NCBI RefSeq assembly: GCF_902705855.1 | Contig: NZ_CACSIJ010000001.1 | Coordinates: 211,044 to 275,043, forward strand | Reading direction: 5' to 3' | DNA length: 64,000 nt | Source of the DNA: Zhongshania aliphaticivorans | GTDB lineage: Bacteria > Pseudomonadota > Gammaproteobacteria > Pseudomonadales > Spongiibacteraceae | Shown here: one piece after another, positions 6,556 through 13,490 of the stretch | Position numbering within the stretch: position 1 is the stretch's first letter | Layout of the letters: every line of letters begins with the position of its first letter | Translations under genes and position numbers: made by a program | Notes under the pieces: generated by a model | What the model saw: the letters and a program-made list of their open reading frames with translations, nothing else | Told to the model about the DNA's origin: nothing | The model's database searches: none

Positions 6556-7431
6556 CTAGTTATTCTTGCCGTCTTGCCGGCGCAAACGCTCAAAATCCTG
6601 AGTGACTAAGTCTAAATATACGAGGGCTTTGTCGAGCTCTGCCGAATGGCCTTTGCCACGAAATTTCATCAAGCGCTGCCTGACCCAACTCAACTCGCCC
6701 ACTAGATTATCTAAACCACTAGCCGTATCAGCGACAGAAGTTGGCATTATTTCAGCCTGCGACTGCCTAAGCGGTGCTGAAATAACAGCGTCAAGCGTTT
6801 CAAAATTAGACTTTGAATAGCTCTGAAAGGTATCGCGCCCTGCGTTTTCTAACACCACTCCCCCTGGCGACTCGCTGGACGTTGGGCGCGCCAAGGGGGC
6901 AAAACTCGCGCTTTCGTATTGCAAAACCGACGGCGCCAAATCACTGAGCTGCTTGTCTCTAGGTTGCAAGCGACCATCAAAAAAGACGCTCATAGGATCA
7001 CCAGAAAGCACCGCAGGATTATTGGCCGCCGAGGGGCTGTTATTGCGATCCGCCGCGCGCAGCAAACGCGATTTTAATTCACTATCGATGCCACTAGGCT
7101 CTTGGTGATTAATCCGGCGCGCCAACATCAGCTCAGTCGCACCAAGAGTGGCAACAAACAAAGACACTAAACTCGGCGTCATTGATACGCGACGAGTGCG
7201 AACGCGCTCCATAACCCGCTCAGCCAGTTGCGTGCACTCCGCCAACTCATCCAGCTTTAAGACCGTCGCCCCACCATATAAGGTGTGAAAACCACGGTGA
7301 ATGTCATCCAAGATGCGCTGACCATCATAGCCATAACGTAACTCAGCCAGCTGTTCCGACAGGCGTTGAACAATCTCCTCCGCTTCCGCGAGGAAAATCG
7401 CCAAAATACCTTCGTGTTCAATTTCGTTCAC
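6556..7431 (-). CDS. CheA-like protein with P1 (Hpt) and P3-like parts but no kinase domain
   Basis: Residues 1-110 closely resemble the N-terminal phosphotransfer domain (P1) of Pseudomonas swimming CheA. They include RGFHTLYGGA with the predicted phospho-accepting His49; the usual Lys after HT-L is Tyr here. Residues 115-235 are a low-complexity linker. Residues 239-286 (LDNLVGELSWVRQRL ... ELDKALVYLDLVTQDFERLRR) look like the CheA P3 dimerisation helices. The protein then stops at 291 residues, so the ATP-binding (P4) and CheW-like (P5) domains of a roughly 700-residue CheA are absent. It cannot be a kinase itself; it may relay phosphate or act as a dimeric scaffold. The start is GTG at 7431. 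It lies between a cheY-like gene and ccmA, the place of cheA in Pseudomonas. Confidence 0.75.
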   Translation of the reverse strand: MNEIEHEGILAIFLAEAEEIVQRLSEQLAELRYGYDGQRILDDIHRGFHTLYGGATVLKLDELAECTQLAERVMERVRTRRVSMTPSLVSLFVATLGATELMLARRINHQEPSGIDSELKSRLLRAADRNNSPSAANNPAVLSGDPMSVFFDGRLQPRDKQLSDLAPSVLQYESASFAPLARPTSSESPGGVVLENAGRDTFQSYSKSNFETLDAVISAPLRQSQAEIMPTSVADTASGLDNLVGELSWVRQRLMKFRGKGHSAELDKALVYLDLVTQDFERLRRQDGKNN

Positions 7432-7459
7432 AGCACACCCGAGTTATATCTGTTTTATC

Positions 7460-7491
7460 GCACGGTCTTAGCAATTCTGCTAACACCGTGC
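7460..7491. promoter_or_regulatory. Imperfect palindrome upstream of the CheA-like gene
   Basis: Arms GCACGGT and ACCGTGC (7 bases), a C/C mismatch, then TTAGCA and TGCTAA (6 bases) surround a four-base centre ATTC. The element sits 29 bases before the GTG start of the CheA-like gene. It could be an operator or an mRNA hairpin. There is no T-run on the minus strand after it, so a simple terminator for the cheY-like gene is unlikely. Confidence 0.4.
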
Positions 7492-7648
7492 CTTATCGTC
7501 AGCATCAGCGACAATAAATACGCGCGCGATGACAATCACTATTATCGCTAATCGACGAGTCCTTAGCTGTAAGCTCGATCACATTCCAGCAATATTTTTA
7601 CGATCTCAATCAAGCCAGTAAAACAGTACATAAAGCGATAAATTGTCC

Positions 7649-8119
7649 TCAAGTCCCCCGCTGAATAATCGCTAGAATCTTCCCTTCCAAAGTTGCCGCC
7701 GTAAACGGTTTTACCATATAACCGTTCACACCGGCCTCCGCCGCCGCAACTATCTGCTCTCGCTTTGCGTCAGCCGTAATCATCAACACCGGAATATGCG
7801 CCAAGGTACTGTCTGCCCGTATCGCCCGTAACAGCGCCAGCCCAGACATTCTCGGCATGAGTAAATCGGTAACCACCAGATCGAAGCGTTGATTGTGCAG
7901 CATTGGCAAAGCCGATAAGCCATCTTCGGCCTCGCTGATATAGCGATACCCTAAATCCAAAAGCAGATTGCGAATAATGCGGCGCATGGTAGAAAAACCC
8001 TCCACCACCAAGATCCGCATATCATCGGGCGAGCACGAGGTCGATGCGACGGGGTCGGCCTCGTCGTAGGCTTCGCCAAAAGGATTGGGAGACAGCTCTT
8101 TGCGATCCTCGTCCTTCAT
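7649..8119 (-). CDS. CheY-like response regulator with N-terminal extension and altered acidic pocket
   Basis: Residues 34-156 are a receiver domain very similar to the Pseudomonas flagellar CheY (FSTMRRIIRNLL, EAEDGLSALPML, AGVNGYMVKPFT). The phospho-acceptor Asp85, switch Thr115 and Lys137 are kept. The acidic pair that binds Mg2+ in CheY (DD in VVDDFSTMRR) reads VVEGFSTMRR, with Glu40 and Gly41. The Trp after the phospho-acceptor Asp is Leu. A 33-residue acidic extension precedes the receiver. The ATG at 8119 overlaps the fleN stop as TAATG, which supports the long form. It probably binds the FliM switch, but its phosphorylation may be weakened. Confidence 0.85.
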   Translation of the reverse strand: MKDEDRKELSPNPFGEAYDEADPVASTSCSPDDMRILVVEGFSTMRRIIRNLLLDLGYRYISEAEDGLSALPMLHNQRFDLVVTDLLMPRMSGLALLRAIRADSTLAHIPVLMITADAKREQIVAAAEAGVNGYMVKPFTAATLEGKILAIIQRGT

Positions 8120-8964
8120 TAAAAGCGCACCGCACTATCCGCGCCGTCGGTTCGGTCTTTTACTGTGAGTAACTGCTCTACAAAAAACACCAGATGCCCC
8201 TGCGCCCTCGCAGGCAGAGGCCATTCTTTTACCTGCGCCGCCAAGCCTCGAAGCGCCCTTGCAGACTCGCTGCTAGGTGCTGCCAAAATAACCGGCGTTT
8301 GCTGACGAACAGCGTCGCGCAATTTGGTGTCGAAGGGCACAGTGCCGGCGTAAATCAAACCTACGTCTAAAAACTGACCGCATACCTGGTTTAAACTTTC
8401 AAACAGCTGACGCCCTTCCCGTTCATCCGCCACCATATTCGCGACAATACGAAAGCGGCTACGGCCGAAATCCCGATTCATTAATTTTATTAAGGCGTAG
8501 GCATCAGTAATCGAGCTGGGCTCATTGCACACCACCATAAGCACTTCCTGCGCGGCGCTAAGAAAATTCACCACGGAATCAGATATCCCCGCCGCCGTGT
8601 CTACCACAAGCACATCTAATTGATTAGCGATGTCACTAAAGGCGCGAATTAAACCGGCGTGCTCCATTGAACCGAGCATGCTTAAATGCCGCGTGCCGGA
8701 TGAAGCGGGAATAATCTTAATTCCCGCCGGGCCTGTAAGCATAATGTCTTGCAGCGAACAACTGCCATCCAACACCTGTTCGATGGTATTGCTAGCCTTT
8801 AAACCTAGTAGCACATCCACATTGGCCAAGCCAAAATCCGCATCGAGCAAAACAACCCGAGAACCCGCTTCGGCTAGACCTACACTAATATTAATCGCGA
8901 CATTGGTTTTCCCTACACCGCCCTTACCACCACTTACGGCGATCACTTGGATAGGCCGAGTCAT
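8119..8964 (-). CDS. fleN: FleN/FlhG-type MinD-like ATPase
   Basis: FleN is a ParA/MinD-family ATPase that limits flagellar number and restrains the FleQ activator in Pseudomonas. The 281-residue protein has the deviant Walker A motif KGGVGKT (residues 14-20), switch regions LLDADFGLANVDVLLGL and VVDTAAGISDSVV, and a C-terminus (ARAQGHLVFFVEQLL) like that of Pseudomonas FleN. It overlaps the upstream membrane protein gene by 4 bases (ATGA) and the downstream cheY-like gene (TAATG). In Pseudomonas flhF lies just before it and fliA just after; neither is present here. The FleQ-type boxes upstream of this cluster make a retained FleQ-FleN circuit plausible. Confidence 0.93.
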   Translation of the reverse strand: MTRPIQVIAVSGGKGGVGKTNVAINISVGLAEAGSRVVLLDADFGLANVDVLLGLKASNTIEQVLDGSCSLQDIMLTGPAGIKIIPASSGTRHLSMLGSMEHAGLIRAFSDIANQLDVLVVDTAAGISDSVVNFLSAAQEVLMVVCNEPSSITDAYALIKLMNRDFGRSRFRIVANMVADEREGRQLFESLNQVCGQFLDVGLIYAGTVPFDTKLRDAVRQQTPVILAAPSSESARALRGLAAQVKEWPLPARAQGHLVFFVEQLLTVKDRTDGADSAVRF

Positions 8965-9527
8965 GACAGCGGCACCGCTGACGTTACCGGGCTATAAATA
9001 TTTTCCCGCCAAGGGAAGCCCCACATACGCTGGGTATGTTCACCGATTTGCTCGGCATTACACATCGCCATTATCTTCTTCAATAAACGCTGATCAACCA
9101 TCTGAACATCGACAAGCAAAACAAATGATCCCGCTTCAGCGTGAACGCGGTATTCCTCCAAAGCAGGGTTATGTTGCATCAGACCAAGTAATCCACCCTC
9201 CCATCCGCCGAAGAACACCATGCATAAAGGCAGTGAATAAAAAATAATATTCCGCGCCAGCTCGGAATCAACCGTGAACAGCGACATGCCAAACAACAGT
9301 AGCAACCAACTAAAAAACAAACCCCAAAATCCGCCGCGCCATGCACCGCCAAGCATATTACTAACAAGTAATGGTGACGCTAAGGGCAAATTCAAACGCT
9401 GAACTTCGGCGTCAGCGCTGGTGAATATTTGCCAGCGCCAACCCTGCAAATGCGGCTGCCTTAGCATCTCAGCAATTTCACTTAATGCCTCTTGATGGCG
9501 AGTTAAAAATACCAGCCGACGTTTCAT
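8961..9527 (-). CDS. Unknown inner-membrane protein with a glycine-rich two-helix hairpin
   Basis: I do not recognise this 188-residue protein with confidence. It has a soluble N-terminal part (residues 1-58) and two glycine-rich hydrophobic segments (about 60-84 and 94-117), joined by a short loop and starting with NMLGGAWRGGFWGL and ending GGWEGGLLGLMQ. A soluble C-terminal part contains the strand-like FVLLVDVQMVDQRLLKKIM. The layout resembles the DUF1269-like arrangement of two small alpha/beta halves around a glycine-rich membrane hairpin, but this is a weak impression. It sits between fliN and fleN, where fliOPQR-flhBAF lie in complete flagellar loci. It resembles none of those export proteins. 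Confidence 0.6.
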   Translation of the reverse strand: MKRRLVFLTRHQEALSEIAEMLRQPHLQGWRWQIFTSADAEVQRLNLPLASPLLVSNMLGGAWRGGFWGLFFSWLLLLFGMSLFTVDSELARNIIFYSLPLCMVFFGGWEGGLLGLMQHNPALEEYRVHAEAGSFVLLVDVQMVDQRLLKKIMAMCNAEQIGEHTQRMWGFPWRENIYSPVTSAVPLS

Positions 9528-9567
9528 ATTTTATTTATCTCCGGGCTAGATCACTAGCTGAGCAAAA

Positions 9568-9987
9568 TTAGCGCAGCGATTGTAAACGTTCAGCCTGACT
9601 GACGACTTCGGTCAGCCGGATTCCAAGCTTGTCTTCTATGACAACCACTTCGCCCCGCGCAATCAATGTGCCATTAACCAATACATCCAAAGGTTCACCG
9701 GCTTGGCGATCCAGCTCAACGATTGCACCTTGATGTAATTGTAGCAAGTCGCGAATAGGCATATCGCTACCGCCCACTTCTAGCGTAAGGCGCACCGGAA
9801 TATCCATCACCATTGATAAATCAGGGCCCTCAGGACTGCGATCGCGAAGCCGCGCACCCACGCCATCCGTCGGCTTTGGCTCAGCAAAGCTACCGCCGGA
9901 CATACGTTGGAAGTCGCCTCGATCTGCGGCCTCCATTTCGTCTTTTAATGCCTGACGCTGACGGCGAAGCTCGTCTTGATTATCCAT
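9568..9987 (-). CDS. fliN: FliN, flagellar C-ring switch protein
   Basis: FliN forms the base of the flagellar C-ring and binds FliM and CheY-P. The 139-residue protein has a variable charged N-terminal part (1-57) and a canonical SpoA/FliN domain (about 58-137). The domain carries the conserved run IRDLLQLHQGAIVELDRQAG, then EPLDVLVNGTLIARGEVVVIEDKLGIRLTEVV in the same register as known FliN. It is full length and looks fully functional by sequence. It is 86 bases downstream of fliM and probably shares its sigma-54 promoter. FliN-related SpoA proteins also occur in non-flagellar secretion systems, but the neighbours favour a flagellar origin. Confidence 0.95.
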   Translation of the reverse strand: MDNQDELRRQRQALKDEMEAADRGDFQRMSGGSFAEPKPTDGVGARLRDRSPEGPDLSMVMDIPVRLTLEVGGSDMPIRDLLQLHQGAIVELDRQAGEPLDVLVNGTLIARGEVVVIEDKLGIRLTEVVSQAERLQSLR

Positions 9988-10073
9988 ATTTAATTCTCAT
10001 CGCTTATTTCAAGCTAACGTGTTTATCGTTAGCTCGCACCACAATACATAAATAGCCTATTCCAGCCACCGTG

Positions 10074-11027
10074 TTAATCCACAATTTTCAATGCTAAATA
10101 GCCATTTACCAAACCTAGCTGCGCTCGCGCCAAGGGCACCCCAGACGCTTTTAACACGGAAGGCTCGCGACTATTAAATGGAATAACATCTCCAACCTGC
10201 AAGGCTGCCACCTGCCCCAAGCTCATTACCGGCTCCGCCAAAGTACAACGAGTTGCCACATTCATATCTAACAGTGAATGACTTACCTGACTCTGCCAGT
10301 AGACGTTATTGCTAAGTTGTTCAGCAGATTCGGTTTTACTAAGCAGCGCCATAACTGGCTCCAACATTGCCAACGGTAAAGCAATATGAAACTCACCACC
10401 GCCGCCACTATCCAACTCTATTTGGAAACGGCATACCACTACGCTTTCGGCCTGACCGGCAATCGACGCCATCGCCGGATTCACCTCCATCGCCAATGAC
10501 TCGCAGCGCACATCACTCACTAATCGCCAAGCACGATCATAATCGCTGTGGGCACGATCTATTAAACGACCTATCACACGGCGCTCGACTTTACTAAAGT
10601 CGCGTCCATCTGCATGCCCCTGGGTACCGTTGCCACCAAAGAACATATCTACCAATCGAAACACTAAACGGGCGTCAAACACGACCATCCCAACGCCCTT
10701 AAGTGGGTGTAAACGCATGAGATTTAGTGAGGTGGGAACGTATAGGGAGTGCAGGTATTCACTATAGGGTTGGAACTGTAAATCGATTGCGGCAACGTCA
10801 ACACTTTGGCCTAAAACCTCAGAAATGCTGTCTCTAAAGTATTCTGCAAAACGCTTATTAATTTGTTCCAAACCTGGCAGACGACGCTTCTTTAAACGAC
10901 GGCGGCTTGCCAAATCGAAAGAGCGGGCAGCACTAGCCCCAGCAGAATCTGGCTGCGAGGCCTGCGCCTGCACATTGGCCAGTAATGCGTCTATTTCTGC
11001 TTGGGAGAGTAAATCTTTCGCCGTCAC
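10074..11027 (-). CDS. fliM: FliM, flagellar motor switch protein
   Basis: FliM links FliG to FliN in the C-ring and receives CheY-P. The 317-residue protein is near the normal length. Its N-terminus keeps the CheY-binding peptide LLSQAEIDALL (residues 6-16). The middle CheC-like domain keeps the FliG-contact block FFGGNG (129-134) and the following GRDFSKVERRVI. The C-terminal SpoA domain spans about 245-315. The start is GTG at 11027. A sigma-54 promoter (11064-11080) and a FleQ-type box (11121-11140) lie directly upstream. Retention of the CheY peptide implies that switching input is still used. Confidence 0.95.
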   Translation of the reverse strand: MTAKDLLSQAEIDALLANVQAQASQPDSAGASAARSFDLASRRRLKKRRLPGLEQINKRFAEYFRDSISEVLGQSVDVAAIDLQFQPYSEYLHSLYVPTSLNLMRLHPLKGVGMVVFDARLVFRLVDMFFGGNGTQGHADGRDFSKVERRVIGRLIDRAHSDYDRAWRLVSDVRCESLAMEVNPAMASIAGQAESVVVCRFQIELDSGGGGEFHIALPLAMLEPVMALLSKTESAEQLSNNVYWQSQVSHSLLDMNVATRCTLAEPVMSLGQVAALQVGDVIPFNSREPSVLKASGVPLARAQLGLVNGYLALKIVD

Positions 11028-11063
11028 GCCTGTACCGCTCTAAAGGTGGAATACCAAGATTAG

Positions 11064-11080
11064 AGCAAGACTTGAGCCAA
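11064..11080 (-). promoter_or_regulatory. Sigma-54 (-24/-12) promoter of the fliM operon
   Basis: Read on the minus strand the site is TTGGCTCAAGTCTTGCT. It matches the sigma-54 consensus TTGGCAC-N5-TTGCW with the essential GG and GC separated by exactly ten bases. The predicted transcript start is near 11053, about 26 bases before the fliM GTG. The FleQ-type palindrome is centred about 78 bases upstream of that start, a normal enhancer distance. Confidence 0.7.
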
Positions 11081-11120
11081 CATTATTATTATAAAAATCA
11101 ACAGCTTAAACAATAGACTT

Positions 11121-11140
11121 GTTGTCAAAAAATTGACAAC
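11121..11140. promoter_or_regulatory. FleQ-type operator upstream of fliM
   Basis: The sequence GTTGTCAAAAAATTGACAAC is a perfect palindrome with 8-base arms. Its core GTCAAAAAATTGAC fits the Pseudomonas aeruginosa FleQ consensus as I recall it (GTCaNTAAAtTGAC), with one difference in the central TAAA. The same TGTCA-N6-TGACA architecture occurs twice upstream of the fliF-like gene. It begins 4 bases after the hpt stop codon, but no T-run follows on the minus strand, so an operator is more likely than a terminator. Confidence 0.65.
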
Positions 11141-11143
11141 AGG

Positions 11144-11488
11144 CTATTTTCCTTCGGCCAACCACTTGCGAATCAAACCCATTGCCTCAACAAAGCAGCG
11201 CTGGGTATTACTAAAATCTTGCTGGATATTTTGAAAACTGGCATCGCGACCGCGCAGCTCTAAACCGCGAAAATGCTGGGAGAGATTATCCGCACCTAAT
11301 GAAGCCGCCCCCCCTTTCACGGTGTGAGCAACAGTCCTCAGGGTCTCGGCGTCTTGATTTTCTATTGCCCGCCCTATCGTTGCCAAACGTTCCTGGGTGT
11401 CTACTTCAAATTCATCAATGAGGGTAAAGACATCCTCCTCCATGAATCCACGCAACTCTTCTAATAACACCAAATTCAACGCAGGCAT
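11144..11488 (-). CDS. Histidine phosphotransfer (Hpt) protein
   Basis: This 114-residue protein is a single Hpt domain with the motif AHTVKGGAASLGA. The predicted phospho-accepting residue is His55. Stand-alone Hpt proteins shuttle phosphate from hybrid kinases to response regulators. It lies between fliG and fliM. In Pseudomonas putida-type flagellar loci an HptB gene lies between fliJ and fliK, so this may be the remaining HptB equivalent; that link is inference from position and domain only. Candidate partners inside the cluster are the CheY-like receiver and the P1 domain of the CheA-like protein. The start ATG at 11488 has AAGGA about 13 bases upstream. Confidence 0.88.
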   Translation of the reverse strand: MPALNLVLLEELRGFMEEDVFTLIDEFEVDTQERLATIGRAIENQDAETLRTVAHTVKGGAASLGADNLSQHFRGLELRGRDASFQNIQQDFSNTQRCFVEAMGLIRKWLAEGK

Positions 11489-11609
11489 GTACTTAAACGT
11501 CCTTGTTTAACAAAAGATTCCAGCCCAAAGATAGGCTAATTTTCAGGCATTAATTAAAAAATTACTGCGGAATTTCCTGCAATTTAATCAGTACCGCTTT
11601 CTGAGCCCA

Positions 11610-12605
11610 TTAAAACACATCAATTTTGCGCGCATCGAGAATAATTTCGCCAACCGCCGCCATTTGCTTCGCAATTTTCACAATTTCAACTTGCGCCGCT
11701 ACGGATTCGGCCTGCGTATATCGTCGCGACAACGCTGTCACAGCCTGCTTTTGCTCTGCGCTTAATACATTTAAAAACTTCCGCCGGAGCTGCGCACCGG
11801 ACTCGGCCAGGGCAGGCGCAAGTATCTCTGGCGAGAGCTGTTTAACAAGCAAGGCCGCATCTTGCTCAGCCATATTGCCAATTTGAGCAAAACCAAACAT
11901 CAGCTCTTCAACCCGCGCCGCATGCTCTGGCTGAGTAGCACGCAAGCCATTAAGCAAATTACTTTCTGACCCCACATCCATTTCATTTAGCAGGGCCGCT
12001 GCCAATGAATCGCCGGTCATGGTACGACCAAGTGGCCGTCCAACCTGACTAAAATATTGTTCCAACAACCAGTCCAGCTCCTCAAGCGCCGCTGGAGTAA
12101 GGCTCTTTAAACCCGCCAAACGAGCAAGCAAATCTAATCGCCGCGACCCCTCAAACGCCAGCAAGACCTCGCTGCCTTGACGCGCATCAAGACAGGCAAT
12201 GACTACCGCCTGTATTTGAGGGTGTTCGCGCTGAATAATATCAACAATAGTATTGCTCTCTAACCACTTCAATTTACTGATATGCCGAGACTGACCGTGC
12301 AGCGCAAGCCGGTCACTCAATAAATTAGCACGCTCCGAGCCAAGCGCCTCCTCCAGCAGACTTAATACCGCGTCACCTGCGCTGGGCTTGACCCCCGAGA
12401 AGGTTTTTACATCACTATGGAAACGCGTCAATACCTGATGAAATTCAGCACTACTCGGTGCGTCCATGCCACTCATCACTGCGGCCAGCCGGTGTACGTC
12501 GGCCGGCGGCAAAGCTCGCATTATCGCCGCCGCTTGGGCCTTATCTAATGACATAATTAGGGCCGCCGCCTGCTCCGCGTCTGATAAGTGAATCGCCGTC
12601 GCCAT
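11610..12605 (-). CDS. fliG: FliG, flagellar rotor/switch protein with altered torque helix
   Basis: FliG couples the MS-ring to the C-ring and meets the stator. The ATG at 12605 shares a base with the stop of the fliF-like gene (TGATG) and gives 331 residues, the normal length; a longer in-frame reading to 12629 is less likely. The N-terminal FliF-binding domain, the middle EHPQ motif (residues 127-130) and the C-terminal MF-start domain (from Met236) are all present. The torque helix, usually of the form DDRSIQ-LLR, reads MAEQDAALLVKQ (about 245-256), so the acidic pair and Arg that face the stator are not kept. The VGG hinge before the C-terminal domain reads MTG. It is otherwise recognisable along its whole length. 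Confidence 0.9.
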   Translation of the reverse strand: MATAIHLSDAEQAAALIMSLDKAQAAAIMRALPPADVHRLAAVMSGMDAPSSAEFHQVLTRFHSDVKTFSGVKPSAGDAVLSLLEEALGSERANLLSDRLALHGQSRHISKLKWLESNTIVDIIQREHPQIQAVVIACLDARQGSEVLLAFEGSRRLDLLARLAGLKSLTPAALEELDWLLEQYFSQVGRPLGRTMTGDSLAAALLNEMDVGSESNLLNGLRATQPEHAARVEELMFGFAQIGNMAEQDAALLVKQLSPEILAPALAESGAQLRRKFLNVLSAEQKQAVTALSRRYTQAESVAAQVEIVKIAKQMAAVGEIILDARKIDVF

Positions 12606-13303
12606 CACTTGGGAACCCCGTTTAACCACTCACTCAAGACGCTCGCCACTCGCGTGGGTTCGTCCTGCGCGATATCTTTAAAGCGCCTTAATTGATCACT
12701 GTAATCATCAAGTAATTCCTGCGACTGAACAGAAGATTGGCGGTAGCGATGAAGCGCCCAAATCAAGCCCACAATGCCCACTAACAGTAGAGCTAAACCA
12801 ATATACATTCGCTGGAGCACGGTAAAACCAAGCACAGACCTTGTGCTATCGCTCAAGCTAGGAAAGACAAGAAATTGCATCGTAAAGCTATCGCCCTGCG
12901 CCTCGTCTATCGCCAAACCTGCTTTTAGCAACGTAGAAAGCGTTTGTTCAACACTCGTGTTTTGGCGGCGGTTATTCACAAGTACCAACACCGCTTTACT
13001 CTCAACCGCATCTGAATCAAAGCTACTTCCGCCCGTGCCTACCTGCACGCTCACCTTAATATCCTTCGTATCAAGCACTGACGCCGCCAGATTCTTAACT
13101 TTGCGCTCAAGATATAACTCGCGCTGGCTGCGCTGATCGGTCACGCCCTTGTCCGAAACAGAGAAATCAGCAAAGCGCCATTGCTGCCAAGCCGCTTCGG
13201 TGGTCACGGCTATCGCCGCCAACACCAGAAGCAACAGGATGATTATCGCAATGACGCTGGGCGTAGAATGGGGGCTATTTTCAGTCACTACAGACTTCGT
13301 CAC
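12605..13303 (-). CDS. Miniature FliF-like MS-ring protein (RBM3 part plus FliG-binding tail)
   Basis: Full FliF has about 550 residues; this protein has 232. It has a first membrane helix (about 16-35) and a periplasmic part (40-155) that matches the last ring-building motif (RBM3) of FliF. Examples are RSQRELYLERKVKNLAASVL and VNNRRQNTSVEQTLSTLLKAG followed by the GDS signature (residues 137-139). A second membrane helix spans about 167-184. The C-terminal tail DIAQDEPTRVASVLSEWLN fits the FliG-binding tail of FliF. RBM1, RBM2 and the beta-collar insert are absent. The start is GTG at 13303 with GAGG seven bases upstream, and the stop overlaps the fliG start. It may form a reduced MS-ring that carries FliG. 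Confidence 0.8.
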   Translation of the reverse strand: MTKSVVTENSPHSTPSVIAIIILLLLVLAAIAVTTEAAWQQWRFADFSVSDKGVTDQRSQRELYLERKVKNLAASVLDTKDIKVSVQVGTGGSSFDSDAVESKAVLVLVNNRRQNTSVEQTLSTLLKAGLAIDEAQGDSFTMQFLVFPSLSDSTRSVLGFTVLQRMYIGLALLLVGIVGLIWALHRYRQSSVQSQELLDDYSDQLRRFKDIAQDEPTRVASVLSEWLNGVPK

Positions 13304-13341: not shown

Positions 13342-13357
13342 TGTCAATAAAATGACA
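13342..13357. promoter_or_regulatory. FleQ-type operator 1 upstream of the fliF-like gene
   Basis: The sequence TGTCAATAAAATGACA contains GTCAATAAAATGAC, which agrees with the FleQ consensus GTCaNTAAAtTGAC at every upper-case position. It lies 38 bases before the GTG start. A further near-palindrome, CCTATCGATAGG (13327-13338), lies between the box and the gene. Confidence 0.7.
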
Positions 13358-13391: not shown

Positions 13392-13407
13392 TGTCATTAT
13401 TTTGACA
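13392..13407. promoter_or_regulatory. FleQ-type operator 2 upstream of the fliF-like gene
   Basis: The sequence TGTCATTATTTTGACA has the same TGTCA-N6-TGACA form as operator 1 and lies exactly 50 bases from it, about five helical turns. Each of the two boxes is preceded on its left by the octamer CTAACACC (13320-13327 and 13376-13383), so the region may hold a partial duplication. Confidence 0.6.
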
Positions 13408-13473: not shown

Positions 13474-13490
13474 AGCAGAAATCAGGCCAG
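13474..13490 (-). promoter_or_regulatory. Possible sigma-54 promoter upstream of the fliF-like gene
   Basis: On the minus strand the site reads CTGGCCTGATTTCTGCT, with GG and GC ten bases apart as in sigma-54 promoters but with several weaker positions. A transcript from here would start near 13464, so the two FleQ-type boxes would lie downstream of the start. FleQ is known to act from downstream sites at some Pseudomonas flagellar promoters. Confidence 0.3.

Follow-up and report, generated by a model that had tools for sequence, protein, structure and literature searches.

A flagellar switch locus without key torque residues is retained beside a second flagellar gene set in Zhongshania and Spongiibacter

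The MS/C ring of polar flagellates consists of FliF, FliG, FliM and FliN. In Campylobacter jejuni, FliF, FliM, FliN and FlhG have a role besides swimming: they restrict division at the cell poles, and fliF, fliM, fliN and flhG mutants make minicells (PMC3228812). In Pseudomonas aeruginosa, chemoreceptor clusters are less frequent in fliF or fliG mutants (PMC12410967). Here we describe a locus of related ring proteins in Zhongshania aliphaticivorans, found in a 64 kb stretch of DNA (G000:C1:211044-275043, hereafter the window). Nine open frames, all on the minus strand, lie at window positions 6556-13303 between ttcA and ccmA, with ccmA immediately downstream (Table 1). We call them s-genes, and c-genes their counterparts in the other flagellar gene set of the same genome. 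The s-locus lies between ttcA and ccmA in 20 of the 21 genomes of the family (Zhongshania/Spongiibacter; G000-G019), and this shared placement rules out an assembly artefact or an oddity of one species; G020, the sole genome without it, lacks any FliM match and its completeness is 70%. We propose, with a probability of about 50%, that the s-products form a non-turning switch ring that would bind CheY and FleN and serve signalling or cell-pole organisation.

The s-locus shares with the polar flagellar ring related parts in the ancestral order, together with the FliF tail and the EHPQ, GGXG and CheY-binding motifs, but it has no export, rod, hook, filament or stator genes, the torque charges of FliG are gone, and FliF is reduced to RBM3 or less. 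An earlier note on this DNA had described the nine genes, their common direction and the adjacency of ccmA, which held with all frames open, and had reported a lack of export, rod, hook and filament genes; we likewise found none of these, nor a stator gene, among the open frames and Pfam matches of the window between ttcA and ccmA. Pfam matched FliG (N, M and C domains), Hpt, FliM, FliN, a MinD-like ATPase, a receiver and a second Hpt protein. FliM and FliN exceeded the flagellar cut-offs of NCBIfam, and sFliG is divergent, since it scored under its cut-off (135.6 vs 226.7 bits). The predicted products include what defines a C ring (FliG N-M-C, FliM, FliN, and the FliG-FliM and FliM-CheY motifs), and we would class the s-locus as a variant of the flagellar switch complex; the export gate or ATPase, rod, hook and filament of a functional flagellum are not encoded between ttcA and ccmA, and features of a torque rotor and of a CheA are likewise missing (see below). 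Injectisomes, too, carry FliN-type SpoA domains in a cytoplasmic ring (SctQ/SctK). The s-locus has such SpoA-type ring parts in common with them, but SctV/FlhA, SctRSTU and an ATPase (SctN) were not found in it; we dropped an injectisome reading because export genes are absent from the locus and FliM and FliN scored under the SctQ cut-off of NCBIfam and over the flagellar ones.

The contacts that would hold a switch ring together are kept at the level of sequence: FliF tail to FliG, FliG to FliM (EHPQ, present in all 20 sFliGs), FliM to FliN, and the FliM N terminus to the CheY-like protein (SQ.E[IV]DALL, in all 20 sFliMs). In FliG_C, the charged torque residues are K264, R281, D288, D289 and R297 (E. 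coli numbering). They are largely missing from the s-copies: in an alignment that is gapped there, R281, D288 and D289 are lost in 20/20 and R297 in 19/20, with G004 having an Arg aligned to R297; K264 is never Lys, and a positive residue, Arg, takes its place in three copies (G001, G002, G011). The same positions are kept or conservatively replaced in all six ordinary or c-type FliGs that were compared with the Escherichia copy. The s-set is therefore probably not functioning as a rotor. A true rotor, namely a MotAB-driven ring without a filament, could draw on the fact that FliF, FliG, FliM and FliN are rotor and switch parts, on a FliG_C that still matches its Pfam model and on the few Arg residues just mentioned; given the lost charges, a locus without a stator gene, an sFliF without RBM1, RBM2 and collar, and one genome (G010) with no detectable membrane anchor, we consider it highly improbable. 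The origin and anatomy of the s-set are well supported.

sFliF of the window has a membrane helix, an RBM3-like periplasmic domain, a second membrane helix and a FliG-binding tail (..DEPTRVASVLSEWLNG); in profile and structure comparison no RBM1, RBM2 or beta-collar was found. It had no FliF match in Pfam or NCBIfam. A 13-row sFliF profile matched FliF with 97.3% probability over columns 364-564 of the FliF profile, its C-terminal part, and the 15 best PDB matches of the AlphaFold model in Foldseek were all FliF S-ring or MS-ring structures, with modest scores (only 3 of 15 at E<0.001, query TM about 0.33; mean model confidence, pLDDT, 72). Across the family, with membrane helices called by a simple hydropathy scan, FliF is a separate gene in 12 of 20 genomes and fused to FliG in 8. 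The fused forms retain a periplasmic stretch in G004, G018 and G019 and are reduced to one or two membrane helices plus the FliG-binding tail in G001, G007, G013 and G014. In G010 no membrane segment was detected: the tail alone is fused to FliG and sMem is gone too, while the FliG, FliM, FliN, FleN, CheY-like and CheA-fragment genes are retained. Set against the full MS-ring parts (RBM1-RBM2-RBM3 and collar), these five other species have a helix or hairpin only, or no helix. FliF-FliG fusions have been studied in Vibrio (PMC11481574); the s-locus has the fusion in common with that work, but here it is natural, occurs in 8/20 genomes and comes with most of FliF deleted. As read from the sequences, FliF is reduced stepwise, from one periplasmic domain to a membrane hairpin fused to FliG and, in one genome, to a membrane-free form, with an anchor retained in 19/20 s-loci. 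This loss of the anchor in steps, while the cytosolic set stays, argues that the retained function is cytosolic and is neither turning nor export.

The genome of the window carries another flagellar gene set, in which C13 holds FlhA surrounded by fliLMNOP-R-flhBAF-fleN-fliA and C12 holds fliEFGHIJK, fliC, flgC, flgD, flgE, flgF/G, flgH, flgI and flgK. FlhA, FliG, FliM, FliN, flagellin and the flg genes were identified by Pfam, fliF by position and alignment, and the others by position and reading; this FlhA is the only FlhA/SctV-family match of the genome. The second set is apparently complete, with its own FliF, FliG, FliM and FliN, and because of these four the s-locus is a second, stripped set rather than the ordinary C-ring part of a flagellar set lying in separate pieces. 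A complete flagellar set lacking its own fliFGMN, which the earlier note had named as a counter-case, is accordingly not what the genome holds. Each of the 21 family genomes searched has one FlhA, and each of the 20 with any FliM has two. The s-set has FliF, FliM, FliN and FlhG in common with the C. jejuni system. The arrangement differs from that of C. jejuni, where the ring is part of a working flagellum and fliG is minor (PMC3228812), in that the s-set is separate and sits beside a flagellum. A survey of partial rotor sets in non-motile genomes counts them genome by genome (PMC12199754), whereas the s-set sits beside another flagellar set and was traced in place. The second cluster also encodes a 365-residue AAA+/helix-turn-helix protein, 52-55% identical to two FleQ-like proteins and without their N-terminal part; two sigma-54 activators next to the flagellar genes of C12 (L037:9962-11044 and 11473-12570) resemble FleR and FleQ, without the N-terminal receiver or FleQ part.

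A likely source of the s-locus is preserved within the same order. Across two adjoining stretches of G348 the order is fleR-fliE-F-G-H-I, a response regulator, hpt, fliK-L-M-N-O-P-R, flhB-A-F, fleN, fliA, cheY and cheA, and the cluster continues after cheA with further genes and then ccmA-B-C-E-F. Long parts of this order recur in G305, G268, G250 and G023, with ccm not found within the next 12 kb in G305 and G250. All s-genes but sMem fit the G348 order, including the Hpt gene ahead of fliK. G348 thus supplies the Pseudomonas-type order with ccm further along that the earlier note had named, and the shared order, ending in ccm, agrees with the repeated deletions suggested there. That the s-locus would derive by deletion from a Pseudomonas-type flagellar-chemotaxis cluster of the family's ancestors is well supported. 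In a FliM tree of 56 rows (midpoint root; the program warned of long branches meeting), the 20 sFliMs form one clade (100/99) within ordinary FliMs and branch with those of the order, and the branch leading to the 12 cFliM rows measures 2.5 changes per column. In the FleN tree, built without the s-row of G016 (a frame with a wrong N terminus), 17 sFleN rows fall among those of the order (fork 94/94), and the relatives of cFleN there are Pseudoxanthomonas and Chromatiaceae (85/86); cFliG also groups with Pseudoxanthomonas (93/92). A cFliM-like FliM, 42% identical, is also encoded by G118, a genome from a different family. We infer that swimming passed to a flagellum of another lineage and that the old one was gutted; alternatively, the c-set may have diverged strongly in place rather than being transferred.

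The N terminus of cFliM, readable in 10 of the 12 rows, has the form L[DE]PEE[LI]EA[LF]M in eight rows of the window's genus (copy of the window's genome at L002:775-1719) and the near-standard form L[DE]QEEIDALM in G018 and G019. One could imagine, then, a hybrid C ring or CheY adaptor, in which sFliM and sFliN subunits would be built into the second flagellum's motor, or cap it, and supply the CheY response that its FliM seems to lack. The eight rows do not read LSQ.EIDALL, whereas the sFliM motif is universal; the two systems co-occur throughout; and the s-set of G010 seems to need no membrane anchor. Several observations speak against an adaptor. G018 and G019 have the s-locus despite their near-standard cFliM, the distance between sFliM and cFliM is very large, the s-set has its own FliG and nearly always its own anchor, sFliG is without the known torque charges, and the acid pocket of the receiver is altered in 18/20. 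We regard an adaptor as unlikely, although it deserves consideration.

The s-locus carries conserved candidate FleQ-box-like operators and sigma-54-like elements (Table 1). The pattern GTCA-W6-TGAC occurs exactly three times in the 64 kb, each time at the s-locus, where 0.02 would be expected; none of 100 shuffles reached three. The looser pattern GTCA-N6-TGAC finds a pair of boxes, spaced by 39-52 bp, upstream of the first gene in 15/20 genomes (in G002 and G004 one of the pair lies just inside the annotated start of that gene), a single box in G007 and none in G012, G015, G018 and G019; a box precedes sFliM in 14/20. A sigma-54-like GG-N10-GC element was seen upstream of the first gene in 18/20 and TGGC-N7-TTGC upstream of sFliM in 10/20, both being loose patterns scanned without a shuffle control. 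Around the other flagellar genes, 120 kb taken from C12 and C13 contain no GTCA-N6-TGAC, and two further stretches of G000 carry one each. The published FleQ box consensus is GTCaNTAAAtTGAC, a motif that the same paper found unreliable genome-wide in P. fluorescens (PMC6120874).

Table 1. Genes and candidate promoter elements of the s-locus (window positions)
Feature	Position	Strand	Basis
sFliF, short FliF, 232 residues	12605..13303	-	profile-profile match, Foldseek, fusion to FliG in relatives
sFliG, FliG N + M + C domains; EHPQ present, torque-helix charges gone	11610..12629	-	Pfam, alignment
sHpt, single Hpt domain, AHTVKGG intact	11144..11488	-	Pfam, alignment
sFliM, CheY-binding N terminus LLSQAEIDALL and GGNG motif intact	10074..11027	-	Pfam, alignment
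sFliN	9568..9987	-	Pfam
sMem, membrane protein without Pfam match	8961..9527	-	structure model
sFleN, FlhG/MinD-like ATPase, P-loop intact	8119..8964	-	Pfam, NCBIfam, tree
sCheY, CheY-like receiver, N-terminal extension of about 30 residues	7649..8119	-	Pfam, NCBIfam, alignment
sHptA, truncated CheA, P1-like Hpt domain	6556..7431	-	Pfam, NCBIfam, alignment
FleQ-box-like palindrome, promoter 1, box 1	13393..13406		pattern scan
FleQ-box-like palindrome, promoter 1, box 2	13343..13356		pattern scan
Sigma-54-like -24/-12 element TGGCCTGATTTCTGC (GG-N10-GC), promoter 1	13475..13489	-	pattern scan
FleQ-box-like palindrome, promoter 2, upstream of sFliM	11124..11137		pattern scan
Sigma-54-like -24/-12 element TGGCTCAAGTCTTGC, promoter 2, upstream of sFliM	11065..11079	-	pattern scan

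sHpt and sFleN are each present in 18/20 genomes, both being missing from G018 and G019. The phospho-His of sHpt and its Lys are kept in all 18. In sHptA the phospho-His is kept in 19/20, and the Lys that follows it is replaced in 18/20, remaining only in G018 and G019; the window copy has the His followed by Tyr. This Tyr is conserved in 16/20 genomes (HT[LI]YGG), and its conservation suggests that the sHptA helix has gained a new role instead of simply decaying. Kinase and CheW-like domains, which a CheA would have, were not found in sHptA, for which Pfam gives Hpt (P1) alone; a stretch resembling the P3 of CheA was read by eye, with no tool match. The window copy of sCheY keeps D57, T87 and K109 and has E-G for the D12-D13 pair, so that it reads E-G-D-T-K and departs from a phosphorylatable CheY. 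Across the family D57 is kept in 18/20 (Glu in G015), and G018 and G019 alone have the canonical D12-D13 pair, which is E-D in 8, E-G or E-S in 8 and D-E or D-H in 2; D13 is lost in 10/20, including the window copy. All five residues are intact only in G018 and G019, and G004 has lost both the sHptA His and the receiver Asp. Phosphorylation is thus possible in some species and doubtful in that of the window.

These proteins might nevertheless act as a phosphorelay module that feeds Pil-Chp or cyclic di-GMP signalling, the ring merely scaffolding sHpt, the CheA fragment and the CheY-like protein. The conserved His and Lys of sHpt, the His of the CheA fragment and D57 of the receiver would fit such a relay. 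In a CheW-domain search, a frame of Pil-Chp size (1759-2014 residues), which by reading we take to be ChpA, was present in 20/21 genomes, G020 being the exception. A CheA of about 690 residues was found in 12/21 and not in G001, G002, G003, G011, G012, G016, G018, G019 and G020, all nine of which have FlhA and three of which are <90% complete. Since the s-locus stays in 8 of these 9, it seems independent of that CheA. The tandem boxes of the s-locus also resemble biofilm promoters; in P. aeruginosa, such tandem boxes are described as characteristic of genes for biofilm formation (PMC10723142). The replaced Lys beside the His of the CheA fragment and the frequent loss of D13 count against a relay, to which we give little credence.

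The s-locus is under purifying selection, with ratios of nonsynonymous to synonymous substitution (dN/dS) of 0.013-0.20 for all nine genes in one close pair, G000 vs G017, by a simple counting method (dS was mostly saturated in three more distant pairs). The values are 0.20 for sFliF, 0.039 for sFliG, 0.013 for sHpt, 0.028 for sFliM, 0.056 for sFliN, 0.121 for sMem, 0.038 for sFleN, 0.018 for sCheY and 0.125 for sHptA, beside 0.049, 0.018, 0.060, 0.018 and 0.017 for the neighbours ccmA, ccmB, ccmC, ccmE and ttcA. This bears on a slow relic, that is a non-functional remnant that is still decaying, as might be read from the way in which some species have lost FliF domains, sMem, sHpt and sFleN step by step, from sFliF being the least constrained gene and from the two residues lost in G004. 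On the other side, FliG, Hpt, FliM, FliN, FleN and the CheY-like protein give 0.013-0.06, like their ccm neighbours; FliG, FliM, FliN, the CheY-like protein and the CheA fragment are open frames in 20/20; and operators are conserved at two promoters. We find a relic improbable. The earlier note had taken the intact frames and operators as signs that the set is kept for a function, and had named decay with stop codons in relatives as a counter-case; the open frames, the low dN/dS and the boxes agree with the former, and the latter was not seen.

Outside the family, among the matches listed from 390 genomes of the order and 274 of the class, no stripped FliF was found in a search that is insensitive to the most strongly stripped forms. 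It reported the full FliF of G010 and missed the fused copy, so that strongly stripped forms elsewhere would escape it and the result is weak evidence of absence. The matches listed were almost all frames of about 490-650 residues, as expected for a full FliF. Three shorter frames were inspected (split in two in G360, interrupted by N in G042, broken in G432) and all lie amid ordinary fli genes; other short or contig-edge frames, for example in G350, G454 and G481, fall outside these three. Two FliM matches occur in ten order genomes outside the family (G028, G084, G089, G109, G179, G204, G283, G301, G328, G340). Neighbours were read at 14 of the best 80 named relatives of sFliM: two are s-loci (Zhongshania sp. 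BJYM1 and Spongiibacter marinus) and 12 stand among ordinary fli genes. Viral contigs gave no confirmed case. sMem, present in 18/20 s-loci and missing from G010 and G019, is modelled as ferredoxin-like strands around two membrane helices, and the fold of the window copy weakly resembles that of alternative complex III subunit D (E 0.05). Its family occurs in 173/390 genomes of the order, and G000 has a second copy on contig C11 (L153:6254-6808), away from flagellar genes; for both reasons sMem was dropped as a marker of the locus.

For the proposed switch ring we envisage the following course. The ancestral polar cluster would have been gutted without leaving its site between ttcA and ccmA, as a flagellum apparently of another lineage took over swimming. 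Turned on via sigma-54 and a FleQ-type regulator, the s-products would assemble a switch ring that stays still and binds the CheY-like protein and the FleN ATPase. Such a ring would serve as a platform for signalling or positioning, with the cell pole as its likeliest site, and would control FleN, FleQ and flagellar placement; alternatively it may dock chemosensory or division factors. In its wider form, that a switch complex freed after flagellar replacement became a self-standing, non-rotating CheY- and FleN-binding signalling ring, off the membrane on one branch, we hold the proposal tentatively, at slightly less than even odds. The earlier note had suggested a rotor or signalling scaffold without a flagellum. 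The scaffold is what we retain; the rotor is not supported, given the loss of R281, D288 and D289 in 20/20 and the lack of a detectable membrane segment in the anchor of G010, and the absence of a flagellum does not apply to the cell, which has an apparently complete second set.

The following observations weigh against the proposed ring. G018 and G019 are without sFleN and sHpt, so FleN binding would not explain the full function in all species. Loss of fliG in C. jejuni has no effect on division or a much weaker one (PMC3228812), yet FliG is always kept here. The loss of D13 in half of the receivers, that of the window included, makes control by phosphorylation doubtful there. Finally, the sFliG tree splits the s-copies into two places on long branches and is not decisive for them.

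Among titles and abstract openings we found no published description of the s-locus, in a search that left most subscription papers outside. With the s-locus, a non-swimming function of the C ring becomes testable in marine bacteria; for one Spongiibacter species, deletion mutants have been obtained (PMC8805636). Structural work on FliG, FliM and FliN assemblies gains from it a minimal C ring free of export machinery. In this family, natural evolution would have separated switching and signalling from torque, and if the proposal is true, the s-locus would encode a motor-derived bacterial signalling assembly of a new kind.

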